33,988 bases of DNA from contig JAGDWP010000077.1 of the NCBI GenBank assembly GCA_023269855.1, forward strand, positions 1 through 33,988, in the 5' to 3' direction. Each line of letters opens with the position of its first letter. The stretch's first letter is position 1. The notes under the pieces are model-generated. The model made no database searches, had not been told where the DNA came from, and saw only the letters and a list, made by a program, of their open reading frames with translations. Source of the DNA: Nitrososphaerales archaeon (GTDB lineage Archaea > Thermoproteota > Nitrososphaeria_A > Caldarchaeales > Wolframiiraptoraceae). This document shows, one piece after another, positions 6,715 to 30,494 of this stretch. The position numbers were made by a program, and so were the translations under genes.

Positions 6715-6830
6715 AGAAATTCAATCCAAAGTCTTCCTATTCTTCATATCTTATACTAGTCAAAGTTATGGTTAAACTACTAGTTAATTTTTCATTAGTA
6801 TACCCTCTTCCCTATTTTTGTTCTCTAGAA

Positions 6831-7178: not shown

Positions 7179-7578
7179 TCTCCGACACCTCTTCTAGCAG
7201 GTTGATTAGTTTCTTAGATGTTTCAAGGAGTTTATTTACATCTTCCTCCGAGTAGCATGTCTCGCCATACCTACTCTCTATGTAGGCTTCTTCCGCAAGT
7301 ATTAGTTCTTCTCTATATTGGTTGACAAATGATTTTATCTTTTCTGATTCCTTGTTGTAGCCGTGTTGTTTAAGTGTTTCTAATAGTGTTCCTAACAGGT
7401 TTCTAATATTGTGACCTCTAATTTTTTCTCCGAATAATTCATAATATGTTGCTTTAATGTATATTTGGGCGGCTTGCTCTATAAAGAACATTGCAAGATC
7501 TTTATCGATTGTTGTTACAGCCTCTCTCAAGAAGCTTTCTGAACGCTTCTTCAATCTCTTTACGTATTCTCCACTCAA
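7162..7578 (-). CDS. HEPN-domain protein
   Basis: KRSESFLREAVTTIDKDLAMFFIEQAAQIYIKATYYELFGEKIRGHNIRNLLG..., all-helical HEPN pattern, 17-nt overlap with MNT gene. Confidence 0.75.
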   Translation of the reverse strand: MSGEYVKRLKKRSESFLREAVTTIDKDLAMFFIEQAAQIYIKATYYELFGEKIRGHNIRNLLGTLLETLKQHGYNKESEKIKSFVNQYREELILAEEAYIESRYGETCYSEEDVNKLLETSKKLINLLEEVSENVKLG

Positions 7579-7696
7579 GCACTATCCAAGATCTAGATAT
7601 TCTACCTAGGATATATTAATAATTGCTGCAGCGTGATCTTTTCTAAATGACGGTAATGATAGTATTTATCTGGGAGAATATGTATAGGTGCTCCCG

Positions 7697-8050
7697 CTAG
7701 GATATGGCTTCTCTTATTAACTTTGCTTCTTCTCTTACTTGTTTAATCCATGTGAGATCGCTTTCCCATTCTCGTTGTGTGTATATTTTAAGGTCTATTC
7801 TCGGTTTTAGTGTTTCCTTGAAGAGTGTTAGTCTTTGGAGCATGTTCATATTCTCGACTCCTTCAATCACTAGTATTATGTCTATGTCGCTTTCTTCCGT
7901 GTAGTCTCCTCTAGCTCTAGAGCCAACCAAGTATGCCTCGATAAGTTTAAGCCCATTTCTACGACATGCCTCCTCAGCATCTCTCATAAACTCTGTTAAT
8001 ATTTCTAATGCTTTCTCTTGACTCTTTAAAGCAGATTCTGCTCTACCCAT
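7697..8050 (-). CDS. Nucleotidyltransferase (MNT-type antitoxin)
   Basis: AYLVGSRARGDYTEESDIDIILVIEG, canonical GS..D-x-D signature. Confidence 0.85.
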   Translation of the reverse strand: MGRAESALKSQEKALEILTEFMRDAEEACRRNGLKLIEAYLVGSRARGDYTEESDIDIILVIEGVENMNMLQRLTLFKETLKPRIDLKIYTQREWESDLTWIKQVREEAKLIREAIS

Positions 8051-8415
8051 CTTACCACCTTCTCAGCCCTTTTTACTAATTCTCTCGCTTTACCTTCATC
8101 GTAGAGTTCAGACGGTAGAGCGTTAGCCGCGTTGGGATATCTTGAGATTGTGTAGTGTATAGTTAGTTCTCTCAAGTCTTCATGTATTTCTGAAGTGCTG
8201 ATTTTAATTTCTTGTTCTACTATTTTTCCTAGTTCTAGGAGGTTGTGGGTTCTAGTAGTTTTCCCAAATGCTAGGAGGAGGGCTTTCAATGCTTTTTCAG
8301 ATGCTTGTTGAGACCAGAAGGCTGCGGAATCCCAGTCACATGTTTGGAGATCGTTAAATGCTTTCCTTAGATCTGATCTTGCTTGCTTAAACCACATCTC
8401 AGCCTCAACACGCAT
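8026..8415 (-). CDS. HEPN-domain protein
   Basis: WFKQARSDLRKAFNDLQTCDWDSAAFWSQQASEKALKALLLAFGKTTRTHNLLELGKIV, canonical HEPN (COG2250/COG1895-like) sequence; 25-nt overlap with MNT. Confidence 0.88.
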   Translation of the reverse strand: MRVEAEMWFKQARSDLRKAFNDLQTCDWDSAAFWSQQASEKALKALLLAFGKTTRTHNLLELGKIVEQEIKISTSEIHEDLRELTIHYTISRYPNAANALPSELYDEGKARELVKRAEKVVRWVEQNLL

Positions 8416-11155: not shown

Positions 11156-11557
11156 TTATGGAACTAAAACTGCTGTTGGATATAGTTTTCCACCAGTGGT
11201 ATGCAAAGCGATCTCATTAGTAACGCCTCCTGTACTTAAGTACGTTGCACTAAATGGGATAGTTATCGTGGTACTGTTACCAACTGTCATCTGAATTGAA
11301 ACTGTTGATGAAAGTTTCCCGTTTATGAATATAGCGTCTATTACCGTATCGGATGAGCCGGTATTCTTCACGATCAACACGACCTGAGACTTACCAACGT
11401 CAGCATATGCTGATGTTATTTCTAGTTTCTCGAATCTTGTGAATATTCCTACTAGTCCTGATGCCCAGAATGCTACTGCGATAGCTATGACGATGGCGAC
11501 GGCGACAAGGATAACCGTGGCAACGACAGGGCTTATACCAAGCCTACTCCTACTCAT
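11156..11557 (-). CDS. Archaeal type IV pilin-like protein
   Basis: MSRSRLGISPVVATVILVAVAIVIAIAVAFWASGL: class III signal-peptide-like N-terminus of archaeal pilins/archaellins. The ORF track extends to 11641, but the internal ATG at 11557 gives the typical pilin N-terminus. Confidence 0.85.
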   Translation of the reverse strand: MSRSRLGISPVVATVILVAVAIVIAIAVAFWASGLVGIFTRFEKLEITSAYADVGKSQVVLIVKNTGSSDTVIDAIFINGKLSSTVSIQMTVGNSTTITIPFSATYLSTGGVTNEIALHTTGGKLYPTAVLVP

Positions 11558-11875
11558 GTATAGAAATGCTCCATCCCTCGAAATAAATTTTACTATAACA
11601 AAAAAGACAAAATAACCTGAAGTAATACACAGAGAACACAATGATATACTCGATCACTAAAGAATAATCTTTTTGGCCATCAACACTCAAGGAATTAAGT
11701 TAAAATATTGAAAGAACGTTATAACAATCTTATCTGCAAGTCTGGATATCTATAGAGATGCATGTGTAAGTCTCTAACCTGATTTACTTATGATGTTGCA
11801 TGAACATTTTGCTCACATTTTTCTATTCTCATCAATCTTCTCTTCATCAAAGCTTGGAATATTGGTGAAGGATGT

Positions 11876-13654
11876 TCAAGGTGTGGCCATTGGTGTAGCG
11901 AATATCTTGATCGATATTGTTCCTGAGAGCCATACAGCTATGAATGATACGATTGATAGAATGAATGCATGCTTAAACCCTGCTGCTATTACTCCTGACG
12001 AAACCTTGCCTGCTACAAGCCCACTGATAACAGCTATAATTATGACTGGTGGGAGGAAGAAGTGGATGAACTCTGCTAGTGAGATGTAGATTCTAGCGAT
12101 CTGGAGTAGGTTACGCATAAAGCTTACAAGTATGACTACTACGACTACGAGCATTATCGCAGTCATGTAGGGTATCATCATGAGAGGGAGGAGAGTAGAC
12201 CTCTTCTGCTTCTCAATCTCTTCAAGATTCTCCATGAAAGTAGCCAATACGTCGAAAGTCTCAGGCGCACCTCCACCCACATCTATAGCATCAATCAAAA
12301 CATATAGACTTGCTCTACTCATCCATCCGTGAACCCGCTTAACAAAATCTTGATAAACCTTCCTTAGAGACTCCCCCCAACCAATCTGCCTCGCAATAAT
12401 CTTCAAATGCTTGCTGAAACCACCGTATGGACGATCCTTCAAAGTAATAATACATTTCTCAGGGCTCATCCCTGTCTTCCTAGCTTCCGTCAAATCTCTC
12501 AAGAACAAAGTCATACCATGGAGGATACTTATACTCTCCTTACCGTATCTTTCATAGAAGACCATTCCTGGAGCAAATAAAACCATAAAGAATATGCATA
12601 GACCTAGCGAAGACTCATATCCTTGGACAAGACCCATAGCCTTCCTCAACTCAACAATTAACTGACTGGTGGCATCGAAAGGTGGAATAAATCTTAAGAC
12701 ATCAAGGAAGAATGGAGCAACAAACAACATCAAGATAATAGATGCGAAAGGTATAGTTAGATAGAAGACTTTGTATGGACGTGTATCAGTCATAGGATAT
12801 TTGGGCTGAGTGATATCTGCTAGATAGAGGAAGACTAGTGATAGTAGAGGCATGACGAGGTATGCGAATATTACGAACTGCTCCGAGGGCAAGGTCATGA
12901 ACTCGGAGGGCATAGCTCTAGAAACAATATAAACAATGTATACGACGAGTGAGAGCATCATTGTGATAGCTGCATAAGCCTCCATAAGCATACCCATCCT
13001 CTCACCTATAATCCTCATCTTACCCATACGGGAATCAAAGATCTGCTCAGTCTTACGTATCAAGAAGTGTACAACATCTCCACCACTCCTAAGAGTGGAG
13101 GCATAACCCATAATCAAGTCACGGTAATCTTTCGATGGAACACCTTTAGCCATATTCTCCAATGCAGATACGGGATCTATCCCTCCAGTCTTAACAGCAA
13201 TCTCCGCATTCCGAGCGGCCTTCGCAATATTAGGCATAAGCTCACCCTTCGCAATACGGCTAAGACTAGTATATGGAGCGATACCCCCAGTCGCCATAAC
13301 AGCTAGATACGTAGCAGCGTACGGTACCTCGCTCTCAAGAACACTGGAGACAGATGAAGCTTCACCATAAGGATAGAGAACGCCCATCATAAAAACAAGA
13401 AGAGGAATAGTAAGCAATAATAGAGAAAATAGTAGGTTACCAGTAAATAAGAAGATGAGGAGTGAGCCAGCGCCTGTAGCGAGCAATGAGATAACGGTTA
13501 AACCTGCAACAATGGAAGCGTATGCTTCTGGATGAATACGTTTCCCAGAGCTTTCAAGCTTAGCAGCAATCCCTGGAAATAACTTCAAGATATACAATCC
13601 TATACCTCTAAAATTAGCATATGAGAATCCACTAAAACTCTCTAGGAAACCCAT
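11876..13654 (-). CDS. Type II/IV secretion platform membrane protein (TadC/FlaJ-like, two T2SSF domains)
   Basis: 592 aa; two copies of the T2SSF-like pattern (VPYAATYLAVMATGGIAPYTSLSRIAKGE..., LTEARKTGMSPEKCIITLKDRPYGGFSKHLKIIARQIGWGESL...), several TM helices. Confidence 0.88.
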   Translation of the reverse strand: MGFLESFSGFSYANFRGIGLYILKLFPGIAAKLESSGKRIHPEAYASIVAGLTVISLLATGAGSLLIFLFTGNLLFSLLLLTIPLLVFMMGVLYPYGEASSVSSVLESEVPYAATYLAVMATGGIAPYTSLSRIAKGELMPNIAKAARNAEIAVKTGGIDPVSALENMAKGVPSKDYRDLIMGYASTLRSGGDVVHFLIRKTEQIFDSRMGKMRIIGERMGMLMEAYAAITMMLSLVVYIVYIVSRAMPSEFMTLPSEQFVIFAYLVMPLLSLVFLYLADITQPKYPMTDTRPYKVFYLTIPFASIILMLFVAPFFLDVLRFIPPFDATSQLIVELRKAMGLVQGYESSLGLCIFFMVLFAPGMVFYERYGKESISILHGMTLFLRDLTEARKTGMSPEKCIITLKDRPYGGFSKHLKIIARQIGWGESLRKVYQDFVKRVHGWMSRASLYVLIDAIDVGGGAPETFDVLATFMENLEEIEKQKRSTLLPLMMIPYMTAIMLVVVVVILVSFMRNLLQIARIYISLAEFIHFFLPPVIIIAVISGLVAGKVSSGVIAAGFKHAFILSIVSFIAVWLSGTISIKIFATPMATP

Positions 13655-13777
13655 ACCACTAAAAAATCAACCACCAAATATATAAAATTTCTTAGAACCG
13701 GAAACCTAACCACGATTATTAAAGATTGAAGACCCAATTTGAAAAGGTCAAGCCTTGAGCCTTTCAAGTACAGTATA

Positions 13778-14341
13778 TTATTGTTTCTCAGTATTTTTGA
13801 GACCTCTTTGTTTAATTATGATAGATCTATCGGTCTCGATGAGATTAATCAGTGCTTCCAAGACTTTGACTACACTCTCTTTATCATATGCCACGGTTGG
13901 GTATACGGGGGTTGTCTCCGGAACTTTCAAAGCAGACCTAATAGCTTCTACACTTAACTTTTTATCCTTATCATACTTGTTCGCAGAAACTATATGCACC
14001 GTTTTCGGATTCATAGACCTGAAATATATATACATGTGGAGTGCCTCGTTTAAACTCGTGGGGTCACTGCTATCAACCATGAAGAGATAACCATCCATCC
14101 CTATTGAGAGAACCCTCCACATAAAATGGAACCTACTCTGACCAGGAGTACCGAATAATCTAACAAAGTGTCCACCTACTCTTACAAGCCCGAAATCCAG
14201 AGCAACAGTAGTCGTTGATTTTACTTGATCATCTGATAGAACCCGTTTATCAGTTGTAAGCGCCTCCCCACATATAGTCTTGATTAGAGTAGTCTTACCA
14301 GCATTATAAGGTCCAGTAACAACTATCTTATAGATCTTCAT
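13778..14341 (-). CDS. Small Ras-like GTPase (COG2229/MglA-like)
   Basis: G1 GPYNAGKTTL, G3-like LFGTPGQSRFHFMW, G4 ANKYDKD. Confidence 0.88.
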   Translation of the reverse strand: MKIYKIVVTGPYNAGKTTLIKTICGEALTTDKRVLSDDQVKSTTTVALDFGLVRVGGHFVRLFGTPGQSRFHFMWRVLSIGMDGYLFMVDSSDPTSLNEALHMYIYFRSMNPKTVHIVSANKYDKDKKLSVEAIRSALKVPETTPVYPTVAYDKESVVKVLEALINLIETDRSIIIKQRGLKNTEKQ

Positions 14342-14706
14342 GGCTTACCTGATAAGAACGCTTCAAGTATCAAGTTGATGAATCCGAGATTCGGGTTAGG
14401 CTTAGTAACACAGATAACATAGTGATCCCTATACAATCTAATAAGCAAGTATCTCTTATCTTTCAATTGGACATCAATCTTTTCATAACTCTTAGAATTC
14501 AGTAATTCGACAACAGCTGCGGCTGCTCCACCGATCGCCGCTGTAGCTGCGGCAATATACTCAGGGTTGAAGTCTATGTTTGCACTAAATGTTACAGGGC
14601 TCCCATCTTGCGAGACTATAGCTACTGCGTCAACCCAACCTTTACTGCTAACCATGATGCTTTCAACGAGAACCTGGAAAGTCTCATACGCTGTGGCCAT
14701 ACTCAT
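14338..14706 (-). CDS. Roadblock/LC7-domain protein
   Basis: SKGWVDAVAIVSQDGSPVTFSANIDFNPEYIAAATAAIGGAAAAVVELLNSKSYEKIDVQLKDKRYLLIRLYRDHYVICVT; ATGA overlap with the GTPase gene. Confidence 0.8.
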   Translation of the reverse strand: MSMATAYETFQVLVESIMVSSKGWVDAVAIVSQDGSPVTFSANIDFNPEYIAAATAAIGGAAAAVVELLNSKSYEKIDVQLKDKRYLLIRLYRDHYVICVTKPNPNLGFINLILEAFLSGKP

Positions 14707-15308
14707 CCACTCTTCTTGATAATTGATGTAACATAATCTTTCAAGAGCTGCCTGGCTTCATCCACATCTATCACGGTGTCTGGGCCTCCAAGCAATAATG
14801 CGAAGACCTCCATCTCACCTACCTGCGTAACAGATAGTATATAACCTTGAACACTATCTTTTATGTTGATCACCTCAGTAGGGAAACCGCTCCTCCTCAA
14901 AGTTGCAACGATATCTGCGAGGATAGCTGCCAGCTTATCCTCCTCCTTAACATTGTATGCTTCAATCGACATTCCCGCTAGATTGAATAAGAAAACAGAA
15001 TTTACGGCTAGAGCTGCAGAGATTTCTTCAAGAGATTCAAGTCCTCCCGCAATCCTAACAACTTCAGTAGGTTGAGGTTTTTGAATAGCTTTAGTAGTTG
15101 AAACAGTAGAAGATGGTGGGATTGAAGGTGCCGCAGGTGTAGGAGAAGGTGAAGTCTGAATAGAGGCGACGACTCTGGACACTTTTCTAGCTAAAGTAAG
15201 TATGAAAACAAGTGATAGAATAGAAAAAGCAACAGCGACAATAACGAGGATAAAGATCAAGAATGGGCTTGAAAGTATGCTTGTAAGAGTGTCTAGTAAT
15301 CCGTCCAT
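14703..15308 (-). CDS. Membrane-anchored roadblock/LC7-like protein (N-terminal TM plus Pro/Ser/Thr linker)
   Basis: MDGLLDTLTSILSSPFLIFILVIVAVAFSILSLVFILTLARKV, P/S/T-rich linker, then GGLESLEEISAALAVNSVFLFNLAGMSIEAYNVKEEDKLAAILADIVATLRR... ATG at 15308 chosen inside the longer ORF to 15404. Confidence 0.65.
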   Translation of the reverse strand: MDGLLDTLTSILSSPFLIFILVIVAVAFSILSLVFILTLARKVSRVVASIQTSPSPTPAAPSIPPSSTVSTTKAIQKPQPTEVVRIAGGLESLEEISAALAVNSVFLFNLAGMSIEAYNVKEEDKLAAILADIVATLRRSGFPTEVINIKDSVQGYILSVTQVGEMEVFALLLGGPDTVIDVDEARQLLKDYVTSIIKKSG

Positions 15309-15655
15309 ACTGTATAAAATACACTTTTCCTTACTTAAATTATTTTTCGCGACGTTTTTCCCATACCTCGATCTAGGGTAATACCCGAAAACTTTATGCT
15401 TCACTCATGCTGAGACCACTCCATTGTAAGATTGAGAAGACCTGGGAAACAATAACTTATCATATTCTAGACTTGGAAGACTGTATGGATGACTGTCTGG
15501 CCAAAACCTAACAGCGAAAGATCATCACGATGGATATGGGAAACACTGTGTAGAGTTTTCAGGCTAGATTAACTCATTAGACCTGGAATGATACTGGAGG
15601 GAAAAAGAATTTAAGACTGGTTTGGCAGAATTATCATTAGTGGAGAGGGTACTAG

Positions 15656-17467
15656 ATGCCCTTATTTATGAAAGAGAAGAAAGAAGAGAAACCGAGAGAG
15701 GATAAAGGTTTCAGGGTTGATCCTGTGCCTCCAGATTATGAGGTTCTCCAACGCTACCCTGTAAGAGAAGAATTTGCTGAAGTAGTCATAGCAGCTAAGC
15801 CTGGAATAGTTGTTGAACCCATCTACTTCGTTAGAGAAGTAGAGTTGAACGAGCAGGAAGCTAAGGCATTGGAGAGATTGAAAGACTTTCTAGCTAAAGA
15901 GCTTGAGCCTCCCACTGTTGGAGAAGAACAGGAAGTTAAGAAGATACTCCTCGACTCAGCAGATAAGCTATTGAAGAAATATGGTAAGGGAATAGGAGTA
16001 GTTACTGAAGATTCTAAGAAGAAGCTCTTCTACTATCTTGAGAGAGACCTTCTCGGCTTTGGTATTCTTAACGTGATCATGGAGGACTACAGGATCGAAG
16101 ACATATCCTGTGATGGAGTGAACGTTCCAATATATGTATGGCATAGAGATTTCGAAAGCATGCCTACAAACATAATGTTTACAGATAGAGCAGTATTAGA
16201 CGACTTCATAATCCAGCTAGCTCACAAAGCGGGAAAACACATCTCCTCTGCCTTCCCAATGCTTGACGCAATGATATATGGGAAACACAGGCTTGCAGCA
16301 ACCTTCAGAGAAGAAGTCTCGCCACGTGGGTCAACATTCACTATTAGGAAGTTTAGAGAGAAACCGTTCAGCATAATCGAGCTTATACAGAGCAACGTAA
16401 TCAATACAGATCTTGCAGCGTACTTCTGGCTACTCTTAGAGAATAAAGCAAACATAATGGTTGCTGGAGCAACGGGAAGCGGAAAAACGACACTGCTGAA
16501 TGCTTTATCATGCTTCATCAAGCCGAGGATGAAGATAATAACATGTGAAGAGACAGCTGAGCTAAACATGCCGACTGAAAACTGGGTGAGATTCGTAACC
16601 CGTGAAAGCTATGGACTAGGATCGACAAAGACTGGAGAAATAACCTTATACGACCTAGTCAGAATGAGCTTACGATACCGCCCCGACTACCTAATCGTAG
16701 GAGAGATAAGAGGGGAAGAAGCATTCGTCCTATTCCAAGCTATCGCGACAGGTCATGGAGGCCTCTCCACTGTACATGCTGAGAGTATTGAGACTGCTGT
16801 TAGAAGGCTTACAAGTCCGCCGATGAATATTCCTCCAAGTCACATTCCGCTCCTCGATGTTTTATGTCTTGTTGAGAGAACGCTGCTTCCTAAACCATTT
16901 AAAAGGGCAACCTTCGGTAGAAGGATGAGATATGTTTGGGAGATTGCAGACTATGAGAAATATATTACGGTTGCTGAATGGGATCCGTTAACCGATAGTT
17001 TCACAATTGATTTTGATAAGAGTGTGCTTCTAGATCAGATAGCTTTGAGATGGGGTAAGAAGAAACCCGATATGATTAGGGAGGTAATGAAGAGGAAGGC
17101 TCTTCTTGACTGGATGGTTAAGAAGGATGTTAAAGAAATAAGCGAGGTCGCTAGAATAGTCTACTCATACTATACTGACCCTGACCGTTTAATTAGAGAA
17201 CTAGGCATTAGGGTTGAAGAGATAGTTGTTCCAACGATATCTGTTAAGCCGAGGGAAGTACCATTAGAGAAAGTTGAACTAGCAATAGGATACATAATTG
17301 AGCTTCTCAGAGCAAATAATGGGACCGTACCTTATTATCAAGTCTTCGTTAAGATACCTTTACCAAAAGACGTCATCGTTGAAGCATTGAAACAATTAAG
17401 AGAAGAAGGAACAATATATATCGAATCAATGAATGTTAAACTGAGGGAAGCAGCTAGAAGTATGTAG
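15656..17467 (+). CDS. Type II/IV secretion system ATPase (TadA/FlaI/GspE family)
   Basis: Walker A MVAGATGSGKTTLLNAL, Asp-box/His-box region PDYLIVGEIRGEEAFVLFQAIATGHGGLSTVHAES. Confidence 0.95.
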   Translation: MPLFMKEKKEEKPREDKGFRVDPVPPDYEVLQRYPVREEFAEVVIAAKPGIVVEPIYFVREVELNEQEAKALERLKDFLAKELEPPTVGEEQEVKKILLDSADKLLKKYGKGIGVVTEDSKKKLFYYLERDLLGFGILNVIMEDYRIEDISCDGVNVPIYVWHRDFESMPTNIMFTDRAVLDDFIIQLAHKAGKHISSAFPMLDAMIYGKHRLAATFREEVSPRGSTFTIRKFREKPFSIIELIQSNVINTDLAAYFWLLLENKANIMVAGATGSGKTTLLNALSCFIKPRMKIITCEETAELNMPTENWVRFVTRESYGLGSTKTGEITLYDLVRMSLRYRPDYLIVGEIRGEEAFVLFQAIATGHGGLSTVHAESIETAVRRLTSPPMNIPPSHIPLLDVLCLVERTLLPKPFKRATFGRRMRYVWEIADYEKYITVAEWDPLTDSFTIDFDKSVLLDQIALRWGKKKPDMIREVMKRKALLDWMVKKDVKEISEVARIVYSYYTDPDRLIRELGIRVEEIVVPTISVKPREVPLEKVELAIGYIIELLRANNGTVPYYQVFVKIPLPKDVIVEALKQLREEGTIYIESMNVKLREAARSM

Positions 17468-17542
17468 CTGAACATTACTAAGTCAACATCACCTTATATT
17501 ATTGTGATAACATTTAAAAACATGGGATACAAATTACATCTT

Positions 17543-18136
17543 ATGCCTAAGAAGATAGTTTTCTATACATCTGAGGATGAATTATCTTCCAAGGTTCTAA
17601 GAATACTGAATGGTTTAATTGGTGAAGTAAAAAATATGGCCAAATTATCTTCACGAGATCAATGGCCTGCCTTCTCTATAACAAGCGTAAAGATTAGTCT
17701 ACCTTCAACGCTTGGAAAGAGTGAAGAGCTTGAATGCGAGATCTGGACAGCGCCGAAAAGCTATGAAGAATCCCTGAAGACGAAATATGGTTTAGCAGGT
17801 TTACCCGCTGTTAAGATAGGTGACTCAGTCTTCATAGGAGAACATGCTCTAAGTATTGCTTCAGACCTGCATACGCTATTGACAGCTAGTAAGTTTACGA
17901 GCGCTGAGCAGATACTCTACCATCTAGCTGCTACAGCTAAAAGCCTTGCCGAAGCACAGATAGAAGAAGCCAGGAAAGAATTCGAATTAAAGGAAGCACC
18001 GATATCTAACGTTTTTAGACAGACTATAAGTGAGAAACTATCCAACCTAGAGAAACTGTATAAAGAGAAGAAGATAGATGAAGAAACATATAGGAAGATG
18101 AAGAAAACGTATGAAGAACTCCTCGGAAGAGCTTGA
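17543..18136 (+). CDS. Thioredoxin-fold-like protein with short C-terminal SHOCT-like helical tail
   Basis: KIVFYTSEDELSSKVLRILNGLI ... YGLAGLPAVKIGDSVFIGEHALSI resembles the cis-Pro half of a Trx fold without CxxC; tail LSNLEKLYKEKKIDEETYRKMKKTYEELLGRA. ORF track start 17504; ATG at 17543 preferred. Confidence 0.45.
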   Translation: MPKKIVFYTSEDELSSKVLRILNGLIGEVKNMAKLSSRDQWPAFSITSVKISLPSTLGKSEELECEIWTAPKSYEESLKTKYGLAGLPAVKIGDSVFIGEHALSIASDLHTLLTASKFTSAEQILYHLAATAKSLAEAQIEEARKEFELKEAPISNVFRQTISEKLSNLEKLYKEKKIDEETYRKMKKTYEELLGRA

Positions 18137-18416
18137 AGAATTAATGAGAAGCTATTGCATCTTTTTCAAACATGTAAAATTACTTGAGAAACTGATTATT
18201 GCATCATTGGATGATAAGGGATTAAGGCTTGTGGTGAAATGGCCAACAGGGAGCAAGACACGAGAAGAATGATTATCTCAATAGATAAGGGGAGAAGCTT
18301 TTGCAGAGAGTAACTAATAATGTAACCTCTTAAGATTCAATTCGAGGAGGATTTATTAAAGAAATAATTATATATCCAGTTGTTTGATTTAGTGACGTTA
18401 TAGGGTGGTGTAGCAT

Positions 18417-18785
18417 ATGTCTACTCGTGCTGAAAAGATAAGAAGTGTAGTTAGTGAATTTATGAGGGGTAACCCTGATGTTACAGGCTTGGCTATAATT
18501 AGTGTTGAAGGATTAGTAATTGAGAGTAGTTTACCTCCTGGACTGGATGAAGAACGTGCTTCAGCTGCTTTCTCAGCTCTTCAAAGCATCGTTGAGAGAG
18601 TTGCAGACCAAGTAGCATTGGGTAAATTGAACTTCCTAATACTTCTCACAGATAAGGGTGGAGCGATACTTTACCCTGGAAAGAAATCATCACTAATCAT
18701 ACTAATGAGTCCTAAAGCGAAGATAGGACTACTAGTAATAGACGTAAAAGATCTGGTAGAAAAATTGAAAGACATAATTGATTAA
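18417..18785 (+). CDS. Roadblock/LC7-domain protein (MglB-like)
   Basis: IRSVVSEFMRGNPDVTGLAIISVEGLVIESSLPPGLDEERASAAFSALQSIVERVADQVALGKLNFLILLTDKGGAILYPG. Confidence 0.88.
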   Translation: MSTRAEKIRSVVSEFMRGNPDVTGLAIISVEGLVIESSLPPGLDEERASAAFSALQSIVERVADQVALGKLNFLILLTDKGGAILYPGKKSSLIILMSPKAKIGLLVIDVKDLVEKLKDIID

Positions 18786-18990
18786 ACACAACCTCCTATT
18801 TTGGCCAGCAATCTCAACCTAAAAATGCTATAGACAAACTAACTTTCCAACGTACCCTAGTATTGAAAAATCATGAATCTAATCTTATAACCATAATCTT
18901 ACTATGCTTGATCTAAATAAATGACGTATTCTTTCAAGTAGCAAAAATGTTTATATATTTTGCATTCGGGTTTATAAATAAGGTTAGAGA

Positions 18991-20160
18991 TTGATAGACT
19001 ATGAGAGACTCAAACGATTAAAGAGGAAGGGATTAACAGTAGTTGAGGTAGTTGTAATTGCTTCGATTGTCTTAGCTTTAGGAATATTTCTAATGATGTA
19101 TTCTGCTGGATTATTCTCTGCTACGGCATTGGATTTAACAGAGCAGACAGATAGGAATATACAGCTTCTCAGAGGTATACTCCTCATAGAAGGAGTAGAC
19201 TACCATGTGGGGGAAGATGGAAGAGATATTGCAGAAATTTATGTTAGAAATATTGCAAAATATTCTATAGACTTGACTGTAACCAGGATAGAGCTTCTAG
19301 TCTCCAATGAAGTACTACATGATGCTATACCTAGAGGCTCATATGGATTTGGAAACTTAACTAAGTTGAGAATCGGTGAAAGAGCTAAGCTGTCTGCTCC
19401 AGTATGTAATGAATGTCAGAAAGGGGAAAAATTGATCTACAGAGTTTGGTACATCTCCTCAGCACTATACAATGTTGACAATCCCCTGTTATCTATAAGT
19501 GACATGCTGTATGTTGAAGTAAAAATAGTGAAGCCGATCGGAGCTGAGGCCGTTTTGAAATGCCCGATACCTAGTGACAACTGGATAATGATAGATTATG
19601 TAGACCCAGTAACTGGAGCAATTTTTGGACGTATAAGCAGTTTAAACCCGGTTGTTAACATAAGACCCGGTCTTGCATCCATTCAAGCTGAAGATATGCC
19701 TTTCACAGTAACTGTCACAGAGATTGAAGGCGGGAGAACGGGTACGGGATCAAGGCCAATAGATGTACCTACGGTTCGTCTTGAACGTGTTCAAGGAGAC
19801 TATGGCGGTCTCCAAACACCATATAGAATAACTATAAGCTCTGATTGGAACATCATCCAGAGAGAATGGGTTCTAGACGGTATCCCTGGAAAAATACATG
19901 TAAGTGGCATATTCTTACAGTGGTCCAGAATAGATAGAATAATTGAAGGAATTATGCTTGAACTAGGATACGGCGAGGTAGGAAACTACAAAGTTAAAGT
20001 TACTCTAAAAGATTGTGATGGAGACACACTTTACACTTCCTCGATCAATGCTACTGTTAATGAGATTAACGTGTTTGAGGTAAGATTCATCCCCGTTTCA
20101 GGGCCCACGAGATTTGACCAAGTATATTATGTTGAAACTAAGGTTGAAGAGCTGTCTTGA
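18991..20160 (+). CDS. Pilin-like / N-terminally anchored extracellular protein, paralogue of the next gene
   Basis: KRLKRKGLTVVEVVVIASIVLALGIFLMMYSAGLF N-terminal pilin-like helix; CNEC and YVDPV motifs shared with the 20174 gene. TTG start. Confidence 0.65.
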   Translation: MIDYERLKRLKRKGLTVVEVVVIASIVLALGIFLMMYSAGLFSATALDLTEQTDRNIQLLRGILLIEGVDYHVGEDGRDIAEIYVRNIAKYSIDLTVTRIELLVSNEVLHDAIPRGSYGFGNLTKLRIGERAKLSAPVCNECQKGEKLIYRVWYISSALYNVDNPLLSISDMLYVEVKIVKPIGAEAVLKCPIPSDNWIMIDYVDPVTGAIFGRISSLNPVVNIRPGLASIQAEDMPFTVTVTEIEGGRTGTGSRPIDVPTVRLERVQGDYGGLQTPYRITISSDWNIIQREWVLDGIPGKIHVSGIFLQWSRIDRIIEGIMLELGYGEVGNYKVKVTLKDCDGDTLYTSSINATVNEINVFEVRFIPVSGPTRFDQVYYVETKVEELS

Positions 20161-20173
20161 GGAGGTTGAATGT

Positions 20174-21928
20174 GTGAATAGACAGGCACAGAGTAATCTG
20201 TTGGTTGTAACGATTGTTGCAGCGATAATTATAGGCGTTGGATTGTTTATGTGGGGTCTCCTTTCGGGATATGCGGCAGTAAATAGAGTTAAAGCTATGG
20301 AAGAAGTTAATGCAGAGGTTCTTGTGCTCCGTTCACTAATAACAGCAGATTATGTTATTTATCCAGGAGAAGAAGCATATATTAGGAATATAGGTAAAGA
20401 ACCAGTCATCATATTTAGATTAATAACTTTACGTAATGGTCATATTGTTTGGGATTCTTTCCAAGAGTATGGAGTAAGGGAGATCTCTAGAATAGATGTA
20501 GGATATGTTGCTAGAATATCTTTTGATTGCCCAGGATGTAGTCAAGATGACTTGGTAGTCTTGCAAGTACACTATCTTCCAGTCCAGCTATATGATCCAT
20601 CCAATCCTGAATTGATCAATCCAACCTCCGATGTTATACTATTTAGAGTAGCCTCATTCAAGGCTGAAAAGCTTACAGTGGCGCCTGGTAGCATTTGTGA
20701 GATTCCTTCAAGATGGAATTGGATTTGGGCTGATTACGTTGAACCCGTCGAAGAATTAGGCAGAGTATCGAATAAGCTCAAGATTAAATTTTCAAGAGCA
20801 TCAACTGAAGAGAATGTACTATTACATGTTAGACTTTATGATCGTGAAGGAGATATAGCTGAAGGAGAGAAGATTGTTCCAAGCGTATCTAGTGGTGAAG
20901 AAACGATAGACCTGGCTGCGCAGTCTTCACTGGAATATCCTGTAGAAGTCAATCTAAATATAGAGAATGCTAATTGGACACTAATACAAAATCAGTGGAT
21001 ATTCAGGAATGATACGACGGCGACTGTTAACAAGATTATCCTTGTCTGGAGCCCATACACTTTTAGGTTGACAAGCGCTCTCGTTACAGTAAAATATAGA
21101 GATGATGGAGAATATCTAGTCGGCGTCAAAGCATACGATTGTAATGGAATGCTTATCGCAGAAGGTCAAACCATTGATAGGGGTGTCTCGCTAGGCGATT
21201 ATAGAGAACTAGAAATAGATTATGGATTAGATCTTGACAGGAATCCTTTAATGAGCGACGTTTACAGAATAGAAGCCTATGTAATCGATATCTCTCCTGT
21301 AAAGACTGTGACTCATACAGTAACAGAGACCGTGAGGACGACATCTACTTCTACTAGTACAATCATTGAAGTTAGACCTGAAACAACAGTAATGAATACG
21401 TGGACACTACACTCAACACAAACATTGACGAGTACATCTACTTCCTACATAACGTTAAGCACTACGGTGCCCTCAACAACTATGACAGTAACATTGACAA
21501 CAACCAAGACTAGAACGATAACATTATATACAGCTACGGTGTCTCTTACGACTACAAGAACTGCTGTAGGAACAGTTACCGTTACTAGAACTACTACGAG
21601 GACCACGACTTTAACTATTCCTCAATCAACTAGGACGGTTACGAGGACGGCTACTATTTTTGTTCCAACTACTGTAACGACGAGAACGGTCACTCAGACG
21701 ATGACTTCGTACAGCACTATATCCACAGTTACAGTAACTTCTACATCAACGGTTTCAACTATCATAACATATACAACCACGACAACGACAACCGTTAAAA
21801 CTCCAGTGTGTCCCTCAAGTTCATATAGTCAAGCATCAGAGAGAGTTCTGTACTATTTTGCCTCAATAGGTATAGTGGGGGCTCCAATATTATACGTTTT
21901 TAGGAGGAGGTGGAGAAATGAATCATAA
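20174..21928 (+). CDS. Pilin-like ectodomain protein with a long Thr-rich stalk and C-terminal TM
   Basis: GTG at 20174 follows an SD (ggagg 20161-20165). VNRQAQSNLLVVTIVAAIIIGVGLFMWG; CPGC; stalk VTHTVTETVRTTSTSTSTI...TTTTTTVKTP; C-terminal VLYYFASIGIVGAPILYVFRRRWRN. Confidence 0.7.
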   Translation: MNRQAQSNLLVVTIVAAIIIGVGLFMWGLLSGYAAVNRVKAMEEVNAEVLVLRSLITADYVIYPGEEAYIRNIGKEPVIIFRLITLRNGHIVWDSFQEYGVREISRIDVGYVARISFDCPGCSQDDLVVLQVHYLPVQLYDPSNPELINPTSDVILFRVASFKAEKLTVAPGSICEIPSRWNWIWADYVEPVEELGRVSNKLKIKFSRASTEENVLLHVRLYDREGDIAEGEKIVPSVSSGEETIDLAAQSSLEYPVEVNLNIENANWTLIQNQWIFRNDTTATVNKIILVWSPYTFRLTSALVTVKYRDDGEYLVGVKAYDCNGMLIAEGQTIDRGVSLGDYRELEIDYGLDLDRNPLMSDVYRIEAYVIDISPVKTVTHTVTETVRTTSTSTSTIIEVRPETTVMNTWTLHSTQTLTSTSTSYITLSTTVPSTTMTVTLTTTKTRTITLYTATVSLTTTRTAVGTVTVTRTTTRTTTLTIPQSTRTVTRTATIFVPTTVTTRTVTQTMTSYSTISTVTVTSTSTVSTIITYTTTTTTTVKTPVCPSSSYSQASERVLYYFASIGIVGAPILYVFRRRWRNES

Positions 21929-22532
21929 ACCTGAGAAATTGAGAACACTTTCTGTAGTAGTTCTTATTTTAATAACTTTAGTGTTTGGGCTAGTCAGTCT
22001 ACTTCCACTATCACAGTCTGGTAAGACTGAAACTGTTACCACTACTACCACTACGACAGTGACTGTTACAGAGACCGCAACCACCACGGTCACTTCACTT
22101 TCTGGAACAACTACAATTGATACTACGGAAACCGTGATAACGAGAACAACAACTACAGTGACTCGGACACTGACGACAACCAATACTGTAAAATCAGGTA
22201 CATCTACCACAACTCGGTGGACGACTCGACTTACAACGATAACTATATCTACAGTTAGATATGTGACAGCTACCACCACTACTTGGACGACTAGGACCAT
22301 AACACGATGGAGTACTCAGTGGACTACAACTACAAGAACTTATGGTACGACCACAATCTATACGACTACCACCCAAACAAGTATGCAGCCAGTAACAGCA
22401 ACCACGACAACATACATTTACACAACGGTGTCAGTAACTGCAACAAAGACTACTATAGTAACAACCTCCGTCACAACCTCCACTACGAAAACTATAACGT
22501 CCACTTCAACTGTATGCGAAGGAGGTGGATGA
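21918..22532 (+). CDS. Extremely threonine-rich low-complexity surface protein with N-terminal TM
   Basis: TM LSVVVLILITLVFGLVSLLPL followed by TETVTTTTTTTVTVTETATTTVT...TKTITSTSTVCEGGG. Confidence 0.65.
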   Translation: MNHKPEKLRTLSVVVLILITLVFGLVSLLPLSQSGKTETVTTTTTTTVTVTETATTTVTSLSGTTTIDTTETVITRTTTTVTRTLTTTNTVKSGTSTTTRWTTRLTTITISTVRYVTATTTTWTTRTITRWSTQWTTTTRTYGTTTIYTTTTQTSMQPVTATTTTYIYTTVSVTATKTTIVTTSVTTSTTKTITSTSTVCEGGG

Positions 22533-22533
22533 A

Positions 22534-23811
22534 ATGAAGAAAAGTAACGGTATCTCAGCTATTATCGGTACTGCAATAGCTTTAACAATAGTCTTCGCAA
22601 TAGTTATACCATTATTCCTCTACATGCAAAGTTTACAGAGCCTCTTCATGCAGGAAGCAAATAGGAGACTCCAATATGAATTAGAGAGACTGAATGAAAA
22701 ATTGGAAGTATATACTACTATATGTGGAGGTTGGGGTACATCTGAACTAGAAGTCTGCATAGTAATATTTAATCCTGGGATATTATCTGTAGCGGTACCA
22801 TCAATATACGGAGAGAGTTATAGATATGGATTGATAAAAGAAGATAAGAATCTCTTAATCATACCAGGTGAAAAAAGAATAGTAAAACTGGATAAGATAG
22901 CTTTCAACCCTAATGTTAACGATACTCTAAAAATTAAACTCATAACATTAAGAGGGAATAGCTTTGTCTCCAAGAATATTATAGGTCCAAGACAGCTACC
23001 ATATATTCTAGCAGCCGCCGTTAAAAATATGACGGTAGGATATAGGTACGAGGTTGAGGTAAGGATGGTGGGGGTATACGGATGCATTTCTGAAGAAGTT
23101 AACCAACAATGTGGAACAGAAGCTAAACATGAATTTATACCTCAAACCTTCACAGACAAAGATGGCATAGCTGTATTTATGGTAGCGCCTGGAAACTATA
23201 CAATAACCTTACGAGTTTACGATTTCTACAGTAATAATGAGATAATAACGTTTGAAACACCATATTTAGAGATACTTGACGATACGGTAGTCAGGCTTGA
23301 TGCAACTCACCAAGTGCCATCTTTGATCCCAATACCCGTCCGTGTCTCTCTTCCGCTTATAAGAAATACCGTGATCATCATGGATAATGATACAAGTCAA
23401 GTAGCGATACCCTACATAATCTCTCTAGGAAACCGGTCTGAACCACTTAGAAGTGTGAAAATAAGAATTACTATAACACTTGAAGGACTAAATACATATC
23501 AAGGACTCTTAGAGGAAGTGAGAATTTCTAGAATCATACCTTCTGAATCAATAGTAAAATATTTCACAATAGCAGTAGAAGATGATGCGGTCATTAATAA
23601 GCAGGTAGACCCAAGTAAGCTTGGAGGACGTATATTATATACAATCAGTATATTGGGGGCAAAAGGAGAATATACGGGAACTGAATATTCACTGCAAGAT
23701 TTTGAGAAACCACTAGAAGAAGGGAGCATAACCTTATGTAGACTGTATACACAACAAGATAGAAAGTCCTCTCCTCAGCCATACCAGCTTGTATGCGAAA
23801 CACCACAATAA
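22534..23811 (+). CDS. Pilin-like / N-terminally anchored extracellular protein
   Basis: MKKSNGISAIIGTAIALTIVFAIVIPLFLYMQSLQSLF archaeal pilin-like N-terminus; SD ggaggtg before ATG at 22534. Confidence 0.7.
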   Translation: MKKSNGISAIIGTAIALTIVFAIVIPLFLYMQSLQSLFMQEANRRLQYELERLNEKLEVYTTICGGWGTSELEVCIVIFNPGILSVAVPSIYGESYRYGLIKEDKNLLIIPGEKRIVKLDKIAFNPNVNDTLKIKLITLRGNSFVSKNIIGPRQLPYILAAAVKNMTVGYRYEVEVRMVGVYGCISEEVNQQCGTEAKHEFIPQTFTDKDGIAVFMVAPGNYTITLRVYDFYSNNEIITFETPYLEILDDTVVRLDATHQVPSLIPIPVRVSLPLIRNTVIIMDNDTSQVAIPYIISLGNRSEPLRSVKIRITITLEGLNTYQGLLEEVRISRIIPSESIVKYFTIAVEDDAVINKQVDPSKLGGRILYTISILGAKGEYTGTEYSLQDFEKPLEEGSITLCRLYTQQDRKSSPQPYQLVCETPQ

Positions 23812-24048
23812 AGATAATTTAATGAATACTTAAGCCTAGACTAAAAACAGGTCACTTTACAACAAAACACTTCAGGTCACTTACACTCTCAGGTCAAGAA
23901 CTTACCCTCTTGATAATAATGCAGAAGTAGGCTATTCTTCTAAAACTCAGACCAATTTCTTGTATAGTTCAGCCTTTCAAGATTACAGTACTATGGTCTG
24001 ACTACTGTGTAAGCCGTAAAATCTCTAGAGATTGTTGTCTCGCTGATT

Positions 24049-24480
24049 TTAAAAGTATCCATCTTTGACAGATACCTGATTTGTATTAAGCCGGCTCTCC
24101 ATATTCTCCGACTTGTAATATTCTAAGATAAGTTCAATAAACCCTATCTTTGCAAAGGGTATAGTTAAGCAGATAATGAAGTAATCTATGTATGGATAAA
24201 CTATTAGACATCTTTTATCATCTAGCTGGACTCGGATTTTCTGAGGGGGACTGAAATCTACTCCTCTCAATACTGAAGATACAATACTCACAATTGCTCC
24301 ACCTGCAGCCTCGACTTTATCACTATAATCTCTCTCATTACTTCTCATTGCCAAGATAGATAGATCCTTTGAAACAACTGCAACAACCTCCAACATACCT
24401 CTAGAAGCAGACATGATACTATCGGCAAGCCCGTCTAGATCTTGGGAGACTGCGTCAACCGTTTGAACTACTCTAACCAT
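24049..24480 (-). CDS. Roadblock/LC7-domain protein, paralogue of 14338..14706
   Basis: MVRVVQTVDAVSQDLDGLADSIMSASRGMLEVVAVVSKDLSILAMRS...KIRVQLDDKRCLIVYPYIDYFIICLTIPFAKIGFIELILEYY. The ORF track extends to 24627; ATG at 24480 gives a compact LC7 domain. Confidence 0.75.
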   Translation of the reverse strand: MVRVVQTVDAVSQDLDGLADSIMSASRGMLEVVAVVSKDLSILAMRSNERDYSDKVEAAGGAIVSIVSSVLRGVDFSPPQKIRVQLDDKRCLIVYPYIDYFIICLTIPFAKIGFIELILEYYKSENMESRLNTNQVSVKDGYF

Positions 24481-25130: not shown

Positions 25131-26174
25131 TTAGATGCGTACATTGTCTGCAAGTTTCCTGAGTATTGGATGAACGTATTCTCCATCTTTTATTATGGTT
25201 TCTCCATCTATTGTTAGTGTAGGGTTTAAGCAGATACCATCAGTATGTGAGCTCGCCAACCCAAGCTTTCCCTTGAACGTTGATGATTGGCTTCCGATCC
25301 CCCATTCGACTACACCCCATACCCTCTCATCTTCTAAAATATTTCCTGTAAGCTTCGCGCCAGGATTACATCCATAAGATAAATGCGCTATACAATACAT
25401 TTTCTCATCATTAAAATTCTCCAACCACTTCTTAAAGATCTTAGCTTCTCTCCCACCAGCTATCTCTATTATCCTACCCTCCTCAACACTTAGTATAATC
25501 GGTTCTTTTAATAATCCCAGCTCGTGCGGAGGCCATATAGACCCATCGAAAACTATTCTACCATTTATTGATTCCTCGATTGGAGCCCAATCAACTTGAC
25601 CAAAGAGCATATACTCTCCTGGACCTGAAACTTCTCCTTCAACGAGGACTGGTCTCTCAGGATCATTCTCAAACTCTACCTCCATTCCAGCAGGTGATGT
25701 TATCTTCACTCTCCTACCCTTACTGGTGAGTTCTGCTAATTTTCTCTGAAACTCATATATTACTGGGATGTTTACTCGACCGATGGTTCTAACAATCATG
25801 TCAACATTCATTCCAACTAGACACATGTATCTAGTCTTCCCAACCCGCATAGCTTCTTCGTAGACGGTTGAATAAAGTAGCCAACTCTTATTAAACTCGA
25901 TCCAGACATCGGAATTCTTTACACATTCAGTTAATGGTTGAAGAGGGAGATAGGGATCTGCAGCTCGGCCTACAGCTGGCGGGGAAGGATAAAACATGAT
26001 TAATGGTTTTCCACCAACGATATATGTGGCCTCAGCGACAGCTTCAGCAACTCTCCAGTCACCAGCAGTATCAACAGTAATAACGACGTTCTCTCCCCTC
26101 CCAATCTTGAGAACATCTTTTACAAGCTTATATGCTGCAGACATCAACTCCATCGATAACATTTCTGAAAACAT
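25131..26174 (-). CDS. M29-type aminopeptidase / NicX-like metal-dependent hydrolase
   Basis: VLKIGRGENVVITVDTAGDWRVAEAVAEATYIVGGKPLIMFYPS; C-terminal HLSYGCNPGAKLTGNILEDERVWGVVEWGIG and SSHTDGICLNPTLTIDGE. Confidence 0.75.
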   Translation of the reverse strand: MFSEMLSMELMSAAYKLVKDVLKIGRGENVVITVDTAGDWRVAEAVAEATYIVGGKPLIMFYPSPPAVGRAADPYLPLQPLTECVKNSDVWIEFNKSWLLYSTVYEEAMRVGKTRYMCLVGMNVDMIVRTIGRVNIPVIYEFQRKLAELTSKGRRVKITSPAGMEVEFENDPERPVLVEGEVSGPGEYMLFGQVDWAPIEESINGRIVFDGSIWPPHELGLLKEPIILSVEEGRIIEIAGGREAKIFKKWLENFNDEKMYCIAHLSYGCNPGAKLTGNILEDERVWGVVEWGIGSQSSTFKGKLGLASSHTDGICLNPTLTIDGETIIKDGEYVHPILRKLADNVRI

Positions 26175-26180
26175 GACTCA

Positions 26181-26840
26181 TCACCACTTCCTCAGCTTCA
26201 AGGATATTAAGCTTTCAACCATTTTTAATGCAGCAGCAGCTGGATCTATTACAGGTCTCCCAATAGCTTCAGAAACTTCTCCAGCCAATCCTGCCAATCC
26301 AGTACATCCAAGGATAATTACATCTGATCCTTCTTTAACTGCTTTCATGGACTCATTTATTAATTCTCTTCTTGTAATGTCCCAGTTCTTCTCAAGGTCT
26401 ACTACATGGATCTTTATTCCCCTGATTGTAGAGATTCTTTCACTGTACCCAAGCTCACGGCATCTCTGGTTTATCAAATTTAACGCTTCACTCTCAATAC
26501 TAACTATGCCGATTTTTCCTCCAAAGACTGATGCAAATGCTAAAGAGGATTCCCCCGGACCTACGACAGGTTTATGGAGAGATTTCTTTAATTCATCTAC
26601 GCCTGGGTCTAGGAAACAGTTAACGATTAATCCATCGTAACCTCTATGAGATTCTAAGGCTTTCTCTACTACTAGAGGCTTAACTATCTCATAGTCATTG
26701 ATTGTTTCAACGCTTGGGGGGCCACTGGCTAAGCTGACTACTTCAACTTCCGTGTCTGGGGAAGCAATACTCTTAAAGAATCTCCTATCACTCTCATCCC
26801 ACTTAGTATGTCCAACCGGGTTTATTACAAGTATCTTCAA
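26181..26840 (-). CDS. Asp/Glu (hydantoin) racemase family protein
   Basis: KILVINPVGHTKWDESDRRFFKSIASPDTEVEVV...VNCFLDPGVDELK...ILGCTGLAGLAGEV; both Cys positions retained. Confidence 0.85.
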   Translation of the reverse strand: MKILVINPVGHTKWDESDRRFFKSIASPDTEVEVVSLASGPPSVETINDYEIVKPLVVEKALESHRGYDGLIVNCFLDPGVDELKKSLHKPVVGPGESSLAFASVFGGKIGIVSIESEALNLINQRCRELGYSERISTIRGIKIHVVDLEKNWDITRRELINESMKAVKEGSDVIILGCTGLAGLAGEVSEAIGRPVIDPAAAALKMVESLISLKLRKW

Positions 26841-27937
26841 ATTATCCTCTCCACAAGTTCCTCAACTGGGATATAATCAATATCGAACCCGAACTTTCTA
26901 GGGCTGAAGAATTTTAAACCATTCTTTGTTCTCCATACTTCGGCTGCTTTAGCAACGACGACGTTTACTTTCATACCCTCTCTTAAAACAGTGTTAGTTA
27001 TTCCTTCACCTTCATCATTCAAGAAGATTATGAGGTCAGGGGCCATTGTAGCAGGTTCACCGTTTATCCAAGCCATTAAATGCTCATTCATTATCCATGT
27101 CTTAAGCTGTTTACCACTCCACCTACCTATACCCTCAACGACTGCTTCTCCTCTTAGAAATCCTTTCTCATCCCTATACCGATAAGATTTAACGTATCCT
27201 TCAAATATTTTCCATCCATCCAATATTTTCACAACTTCTTCGACAGGGTTGAGACCTCTATTTTTAGCAATCCTAACTGCTTCTCCAACCTTTAGACATA
27301 AAGTCAGAGTGTCTTTAATGACGACTTTCTCTGCATCATTTATCCTTAAAGGTGTATCTACTACTGCTACAAACCTACCTGATAAGACTGACAAGTATCT
27401 CGCAATAGCTTCATAATCATCTATATCACTATACTCGTATACTACGACTTTGTTCCCAGTCTCTGAAACGATTACTGAAGGGTACATTGGGACGCCAAAT
27501 ATATGAACAGTGCATTGATGAAGTTCAGGAGCGGCTCTCCCAAGAAGGTCTCCGTCAATGACTGGTAACCCCATGTATCCACCCATGTAGAGAGCTAGTG
27601 AAGCATTAAACCCGCCTAGCTCAGAAGCTAATACAGCAGAAATCTTAACACCTAGTATACGCTCCATCTCTTCGAAAGCTACCTTGATAGGTTCATTAAT
27701 CTTAACATGCTTCTTTGTCTTAGCTTCAGGAGCTATAGTCCCAACATAGTATGGAACAACAATAACTGAATCTCTATCAACTTCGGATAAGCTTACAAGC
27801 TTAACACTGCCACCTTTCGATAATATCTCCAAAATCAATCTTAACCCTTCTTCAGGGTCTCCGCCTCCACCTGTTCCAAGAATAGTGGCCCCTCTAACAA
27901 AATCCTCCGCACGCTTGACATCTTTAATCTCAAACAT
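26837..27937 (-). CDS. DUF917 family protein
   Basis: AEDFVRGATILGTGGGGDPEEGLRLILE...SELGGFNASLALYMGGYMGLPVIDGDLLGRAAPELHQCT, DUF917-like; ATG/TGA-type overlap with racemase. Confidence 0.85.
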   Translation of the reverse strand: MFEIKDVKRAEDFVRGATILGTGGGGDPEEGLRLILEILSKGGSVKLVSLSEVDRDSVIVVPYYVGTIAPEAKTKKHVKINEPIKVAFEEMERILGVKISAVLASELGGFNASLALYMGGYMGLPVIDGDLLGRAAPELHQCTVHIFGVPMYPSVIVSETGNKVVVYEYSDIDDYEAIARYLSVLSGRFVAVVDTPLRINDAEKVVIKDTLTLCLKVGEAVRIAKNRGLNPVEEVVKILDGWKIFEGYVKSYRYRDEKGFLRGEAVVEGIGRWSGKQLKTWIMNEHLMAWINGEPATMAPDLIIFLNDEGEGITNTVLREGMKVNVVVAKAAEVWRTKNGLKFFSPRKFGFDIDYIPVEELVERII

Positions 27938-28007
27938 ATCTTACACCTTCAAATCATGATGTGAGACCCTTTAAATAAAGGTTATCCATCTCTCTTAACG
28001 AGTTACA

Positions 28008-28700
28008 TTGGTTCACATATTCGTCTTAAACCCTGTATCGACAAGTATATGGAACGAGCTGACTGAAAAGACCCTTAGAAGAATAGCTTGTCCCAGTACA
28101 AGATTTACAGTTGAAAATCTAGAGAAAGGTCCCAAATCTATTGAATCTGAACTAGATGTTGTCTCAGCGTCACCATATGTAGTTGAGAAGATTGCTGAAG
28201 CTCAGGAGAAAGGATACAACGTAGCAGTGATTAATTGTTTCGATGACCCCGGTCTAGAAGCAGCTAGAGAGAAAGCATCCATGCTTGTTCTAGGAGTAGG
28301 TGAGACATCAATTATCTCAGCTCTACATCTCGGATACAAATTCGCAATAATATCTACTGGAGAAAAATCTAAAGCTTCATATGATCTTAAAGCCTTGAAA
28401 CTAGGCGTAAGAAGTAGGCTAGCTTATACATCCGGCATCTCTACAAAGGTTCTTGATTTGAGAAAAGATGAAGAGAAGACTAAGCAACTACTTTTAGAAG
28501 AAGCTGTGAAGGCAGTTGAAGAATTCCATGCAGAAGTAATAGTGCTTGGATGTAGTGGGATGATCGGTCTAGCTGAATGGTTGTCAGAGAAAATCAACGT
28601 CCCAGTAATAGATCCAACGATAACAACTTTCAAGATAGCTGAAGCTCTCGCATCAATAGGGATCAAGCATAGCAAGAAATATCTGTATAGAGTTGATTGA
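28008..28700 (+). CDS. Asp/Glu (hydantoin) racemase family protein, paralogue of 26181..26840
   Basis: VHIFVLNPVSTSIWNELTEKTLRRIACPSTRFTVENL...INCFDDPGLEAAREK...VLGCSGMIGLAEWL. TTG start. Confidence 0.85.
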   Translation: MVHIFVLNPVSTSIWNELTEKTLRRIACPSTRFTVENLEKGPKSIESELDVVSASPYVVEKIAEAQEKGYNVAVINCFDDPGLEAAREKASMLVLGVGETSIISALHLGYKFAIISTGEKSKASYDLKALKLGVRSRLAYTSGISTKVLDLRKDEEKTKQLLLEEAVKAVEEFHAEVIVLGCSGMIGLAEWLSEKINVPVIDPTITTFKIAEALASIGIKHSKKYLYRVD

Positions 28701-28739
28701 TAGGGCAAACTTAATAAAAGTGTGGAAAACACTAAATAG

Positions 28740-30440: not shown

Positions 30441-30494
30441 AACGTCTGGGAGAGCTAACCAACACTTCCATACTTTTTTTGAAGGAGGAAGTAT

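Follow-up and report, generated by a model that had tools for sequence, protein, structure and literature searches.

To our knowledge, how archaea control when and where their pili extend is little understood beyond transcription. Roadblock/LC7 proteins have eukaryotic homologues that serve in dynein and Ragulator. In bacteria, the GTPases MglA and SofG are established regulators of type IV pili (T4P) (PMC4316618, PMC9481161), and the archaeal Group 4 MglA genes were left without conserved neighbours by a 2014 GTPase survey (PMC4316618). Furthermore, one sentence in the main text of Makarova et al. 2016 mentions LC7 proteins for archaeal T4P loci, and this text names no small Ras-type GTPase (PMC4858521). 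Here we analysed a stretch of 33,988 nucleotides (the window) on contig C34 of the 1.64 Mb genome of a hot-spring archaeon of the order Caldarchaeales (formerly Aigarchaeota), in which positions 11156-24480 are, by gene content, a T4P locus with a FlaI-type ATPase, a TadC platform and four pilin-like proteins, together with an MglA-type GTPase and four LC7 proteins. The combination of T4P and GTPase/LC7 genes is real, conserved and apparently undescribed, and we propose, with about equal confidence and doubt, that a membrane-tethered LC7 pair and the MglA-type GTPase form a dedicated G-protein module recruited to regulate this pilus motor.

Results

The locus consists of two divergent gene sets starting from a gap at 15309-15655. 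Leftward, the order is LC7b, LC7a, GTPase, TadC and pilinA; rightward, the ATPase is followed by g17504, LC7c, and three pilin-like proteins plus a Thr-rich anchored protein. LC7d lies on the minus strand past the rightward set, where a tRNA gene bounds the locus. On re-reading the sequence, all genes listed in the original prediction were found at the positions it had given. In what follows, family f1, in which GTPase relatives from named assemblies put the window genome beside Candidatus Geocrenenecus, also includes Wolframiiraptor, and f2 is its sister family Calditenuaceae; the relatives compared are metagenome-derived genomes. The features are:

11156..11557 (likely start ~11557), minus strand: pilinA, pilin/archaellin-like protein with an archaeal class III signal peptide (TIGR02537 above cut-off; UpsA 5e-6)
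11876..13654, minus strand: TadC/FlaJ/UpsF-like platform (PF00482, T2SSF, 8e-24; UpsF 6e-24, below equivalog cut-off)
13778..14341, minus strand: MglA-type small GTPase (G1 GPYNAGKTT, G2 TTTV, G3 GTPGQ, G4 NKYD; alignment A1)
14338..14706, minus strand: LC7a, soluble roadblock/LC7 protein (Robl_LC7 0.003, below cut-off; 4-base overlap with the GTPase gene)
14703..~15308, minus strand: LC7b, with transmembrane N-terminus, disordered linker and roadblock-fold C-terminus (AlphaFold (AF2) pLDDT 80; Foldseek MglB, E 6e-6)
15656..17467, plus strand: VirB11/FlaI/TadA-type T4P assembly ATPase (PF00437, T2SSE, 9e-35; FlaI family 1e-103, below equivalog cut-off)
17546..18136 (reading frame may start at 17504), plus strand: g17504, conserved alpha/beta protein with a C-terminal helical part (alignment A5; L034:11764-12609; AF2 pLDDT 81)
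18417..18785, plus strand: LC7c, roadblock/LC7 protein (PF03259 1.5e-9, above cut-off)
18991..20160, plus strand: pilin-like protein, N-terminus KRKG-LTVVEVV (from sequence; orthologue kept in f1, f2 and f4 T4P loci)
20114..21928, plus strand: pilin-like protein with Thr-rich stalk, paralogue of the 18991 protein (phmmer cross-hits; no Pfam match)
21918..22532, plus strand: Thr-rich anchored surface protein (from sequence; kept within genus g1)
22525..23811, plus strand: UpsB-like pilin-type protein (NF046074 7.6e-4, below cut-off; orthologues in f1, f2 and f4 loci)
24049..24480, minus strand: LC7d, diverged LC7a paralogue (LC7a (A2) profile, E 3e-41; 36% identity to LC7a in alignment A2)

The GTPase and its operon

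The LC7b, LC7a and GTPase genes form an operon, which in relatives often continues into tadC. The ATGA shared by the LC7a and GTPase genes, already remarked in the original prediction, is a 4-base overlap that most f1 loci retain, as does one locus of family f66, beyond the order. The GTPase matches the small_GTP family above cut-off (8.5e-12), has Thermus MglA as its best solved relative (1.3e-18) and is 75% identical to its Candidatus Geocrenenecus counterpart. Since the motifs GxxxxGKTT, T45, GTPGQ and NKxD are retained in the GTPases across f1 (alignment A1), the window GTPase is probably active. Compared with the published group definitions of Wuichet and Sogaard-Andersen (PMC4316618), alignment A1 displays the marks of groups 2-5, namely a P-loop, a Thr replacing the G2 arginine finger, GTPGQ as G3 and NKxD as G4. 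Group 1, that of Myxococcus MglA and SofG, was rejected, since it needs TVPGQ and a G2 arginine finger, where the window protein has GTPGQ and TTTV; the protein predicted as MglA-like is indeed of the MglA family, but not of the Myxococcus MglA type.

As a separate observation, a fusion of a KaiC-like domain with an MglA-type GTPase, followed by an overlapping LC7 gene, was found at L057:9031-10588, L058:9329-10886, L189:876-2385 and L236:6845-8412; these fusions occur in genus g5, in another archaeal family and in Archaeoglobaceae (Pfam shown for L057).

The roadblock/LC7 proteins

Membership of the LC7 superfamily was reached by a different route for each protein: by Pfam for LC7c, hhalign for LC7a, AF2 and Foldseek for LC7b, and homology for LC7d. 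The LC7a profile matches that of LC7c (hhalign probability 98.9, E 1.4e-17) and those of solved roadblock proteins (6.5e-6), whereas LC7d, which occupies an equivalent position in genomes G002 and G003, has no Pfam match and joins the superfamily through its homology to LC7a only. LC7b was assigned by structure, because it has no Pfam LC7 match and its profile matches (Pfam, hhalign) are weak. In its model, a single transmembrane helix is joined through a disordered linker to a domain with the order alpha-beta-beta-alpha-beta-beta-beta-alpha. The top PDB fold matches of this domain are for the most part MglB chains (E 6e-6, probability 1.00, target TM ~0.6), and the residues ARKVSR past the helix suggest, by the positive-inside rule, that this domain is cytoplasmic. 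The original prediction had named structure predictions as a hazard to its four roadblock calls; fold and profile comparison left all of them standing, on evidence of differing kind and strength.

Next to LC7c, g17504 holds a conserved position, and in both G005 and G016 a g17504-like region shares one frame of 286-287 aa with an LC7c-type domain (alignment made for G016), so that the two proteins probably act together. A thioredoxin- or KaiB-like identity for g17504 was rejected, as comparison of its model with the PDB gave no match at E<0.001.

All LC7 matches of the window genome fall inside this locus; extra LC7 genes distant from it occur in some g2 and g5 genomes. A four-LC7-gene array, likewise distant from the T4P locus, was seen in one g5 genome (L243:7784-10094).

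Conservation within the family

The GTPase gene lies beside T4P genes in 14/14 f1 genomes that have it, in varying gene orders: it adjoins tadC in g1, g5 and part of g2, lies beyond the ATPase in g2, and adjoins pilin-like genes in g3. In four f1 loci the GTPase-tadC junction measures -1, -1, +3 and -4, that is, overlap or abutment. That this proximity is kept despite the reshuffled order in g1, g2, g3 and g5 argues for function over inertia. Moreover, LC7 genes were detected by profile in 18/18 f1 genomes with an orthologue of the ATPase and in 0/4 without it. The original prediction had made conserved co-occurrence its own check, and linkage of GTPase/LC7 with ATPase/TadC genes is indeed kept in several genera; recurring in genus, family and beyond, in differing arrangements, the gene cluster is not a product of chance.

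Several observations weigh against regulation of the motor by the GTPase module. In genus g4, three genomes that are 95-98% complete have the ATPase, TadC and LC7b-LC7a beside tadC, yet no GTPase. The orthologous f2 pilus has neither LC7 nor GTPase genes in stretches up to 10 kb on either side, and f2 carries its LC7b-LC7a-GTPase operon elsewhere, syntenic with unrelated genes. The orthologous pili of families f3 and f4 are also without the module; LC7 genes were found in 0/6 of their genomes, at least three of which carry a related T4P ATPase. In addition, the f1 counts are phylogenetically non-independent, and a single deletion could take the whole linked locus; the locus also contains no gene for a polarity or kinase partner. 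Strict dependence between T4P and GTPase is ruled out by g4, f2, f3 and f4. Since the f2 pilus lacks the module and the f2 operon lies elsewhere, the LC7b-LC7a-GTPase operon is a module able to serve the pilus and not bound to it, and the GTPase is the dispensable member, as g4 keeps LC7b-LC7a without it.

Roadblock proteins of dynein have a role in assembly, not in GTPase regulation. The LC7 proteins might likewise be a pilus-dedicated scaffold or adaptor joining TadC, the ATPase and the membrane, with the GTPase as an optional accessory, an explanation that the g4 arrangement favours and that we nonetheless consider unlikely. Genus g2 agrees with it in having two LC7 pairs, the GTPase accompanying one only, and in the tree the g4 pair clusters with the second of these g2 pairs, the one linked to tadC; elsewhere, in T4P loci or not (f2, f29, f66), the GTPase nearly always follows LC7b-LC7a, which speaks against this explanation. 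Similarly, LC7c and LC7d have no adjacent GTPase, and the 2016 main-text mention of LC7 in T4P loci is silent on small GTPases (PMC4858521), but a GTPase with intact motifs is kept in most f1 genomes.

Recurrence beyond the order

A relative of the GTPase was found in 71/398 Thermoproteota genomes. In f66 (L230, L231), tadC is followed on the same strand by LC7b-LC7a-GTPase, and the order LC7b-LC7a-GTPase-pilin also occurs; in genus g91 of f29 (L237:8875-17270, L238:1-8938), ATPase, TadC and pilin genes accompany two LC7 genes and both MglA-like and Ras-like GTPases. The TadC proteins of f66 and f29 g91 form one clade, hence their T4P linkage may be one event.

The closest bacterial relatives of the GTPase, mainly from Coriobacteriia (Actinomycetota), sit in T4P clusters, such as that of L145 (5656-16501) with PilB, LC7, DUF4388, GTPase, PilB, PilC, pilin and prepilin peptidase. 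Among the Actinomycetota loci, selected by GTPase similarity regardless of T4P content, a PilB/T-type ATPase lies within 5 kb of the GTPase in 38/40 and an LC7 gene is present in 34/40, the exceptions all being at contig ends. In the GTPase tree the bacterial sequences form a separate clade (support 95/92), and therefore the T4P linkage either had separate origins or was retained separately. Because of the same clade, we rejected a horizontal origin of the module in the T4P-linked bacteria. As an observation in its own right, LC7 and an MglA-type GTPase seem to be a regular part of Coriobacteriia T4P clusters (L145 and about 40 similar loci), and a literature search with 'MglA' on these clusters found nothing.

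These distributions also bear on a purely positional explanation, by which the module would act in a different context, such as signalling at the membrane, at the surface or in transcription, and have no more than its locus or regulon in common with the pilus. Families f2, f24, f29 (g56) and f52 carry the module with no T4P machine genes near the GTPase in the stretches examined, in keeping with the archaeal Group 4 MglA genes of the 2014 survey (PMC4316618). We regard this explanation as improbable: in four f1 genera the genes stay linked although their order has changed, the linkage is seen again in f66, f29 g91 and Coriobacteriia, and the f1 genomes without this pilus ATPase are the ones without LC7 genes.

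The pilus machine and the rest of the window

As judged from sequence, the identities of ATPase and platform are certain, and those of the pilins draw on the form of the signal peptide and on weak family matches; by its genes alone, the locus thus has the T2SSE ATPase, T2SSF platform and class III pilins of an archaeal T4P. In relatives, pilinA homologues sit after tadC. The prepilin peptidase is encoded on a different contig of the window genome, and a second T4P ATPase lies on contig C59, where the 14.6-kb stretch examined holds neither LC7 nor GTPase genes and serves as an internal control. An archaellum was rejected, since the ATPase has FlaI as its best family but falls below cut-off, and no archaellum accessory or KaiC-type (ArlH) protein is encoded among the open reading frames of 11156-24480. 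In orthologous T4P ATPases, a putative intein-like in-frame insert of ~480 residues splits the protein between residues 364/365 (QAIA/TGHGG; L031:1242-4499, L034:4086-7364, L035:2129-5416), and several further T4P ATPases of the phylum share this breakpoint.

Elsewhere in the window, 5916-8415 holds a nucleotidyltransferase and two HEPN genes resembling HEPN/MNT toxin-antitoxin pairs. Genes for Asp/Glu/hydantoin racemases, an S-Me-THD-like protein and an apparent dipeptide ABC transporter (25131-32401) make up a probable uptake/catabolism cluster, and a LAGLIDADG endonuclease domain lies close to the contig end (33025-33570).

Discussion

Control of the motor appears to be the best-supported function of the GTPase/LC7 module. 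In the mechanism that we propose, LC7b would be membrane-tethered, and its LC7 domain, with LC7a as the probable partner, would provide a platform near TadC and the ATPase. The GTPase in its GTP state would bind the LC7a/LC7b pair, and its bound or unbound state would gate the pilus motor, either at its assembly or in its activity, whereas LC7c with g17504, as well as LC7d, may act as additional adaptors of the same machine. If so, archaea would have a G-protein/roadblock switch of Ras type acting at the pilus machine itself, as a counterpart of MglA/MglB in Myxococcus, and this would give a function to archaeal roadblock proteins and to the archaeal MglA-like GTPases that the 2014 survey left without conserved neighbours. 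More tentatively, and with doubt prevailing, we suggest that an anchored hetero-roadblock with an MglA-type GTPase directly gates the archaeal T4P motor, that such modules were recruited separately in Thermoproteota and Coriobacteriia, and that G-protein control of pili is recurrent across both prokaryotic domains.

The original prediction called the arrangement possibly undescribed. This claim must be narrowed, as LC7 proteins in archaeal T4P loci had been noted in the 2016 main text (PMC4858521); for the GTPase, the anchored LC7 and the operon, we found no description of an archaeal T4P with GTPase and roadblock genes in the open-licence literature.

Among known systems, the archaeal T4P of the Makarova 2016 census (Ups, Aap, bindosome) share with the window locus the FlaI-type ATPase, TadC and class III pilins, and the census records LC7 (arCOG02603) in many T4P loci; the window locus adds a GTPase and a membrane-anchored LC7, which are unreported in its main text. 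Actinobacterial conservons (CvnA-D) resemble it in combining LC7 with a GTPase of the MglA-family group 2-5 type, but the window locus has T4P genes in place of a CvnA histidine kinase or CvnC, and a Streptomyces conservon was rejected as neither is among its open reading frames. The Coriobacteriia T4P clusters (L145 and similar) likewise group PilB, LC7, GTPase (about 40-45% identical to that of the window), PilC, pilin and prepilin peptidase; in contrast, their machine is of the bacterial PilB/PilC type, a DUF4388 protein stands between LC7 and GTPase, and their GTPases form the separate clade. Closest in design is MglA/MglB of Myxococcus and Thermus, an MglA-family GTPase with adjoining LC7 and T4P output, and the best PDB match of the window GTPase (Thermus MglA) and the fold matches of LC7b (mostly MglB) point the same way. 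The two nevertheless differ: MglA has TVPGQ and an arginine finger where the window GTPase has GTPGQ and a threonine, RomR, RomX and Frz genes are absent from the window locus, one MglB homodimer is replaced by two distinct LC7 proteins, one of them membrane-anchored, and the module is embedded in the pilus locus itself.

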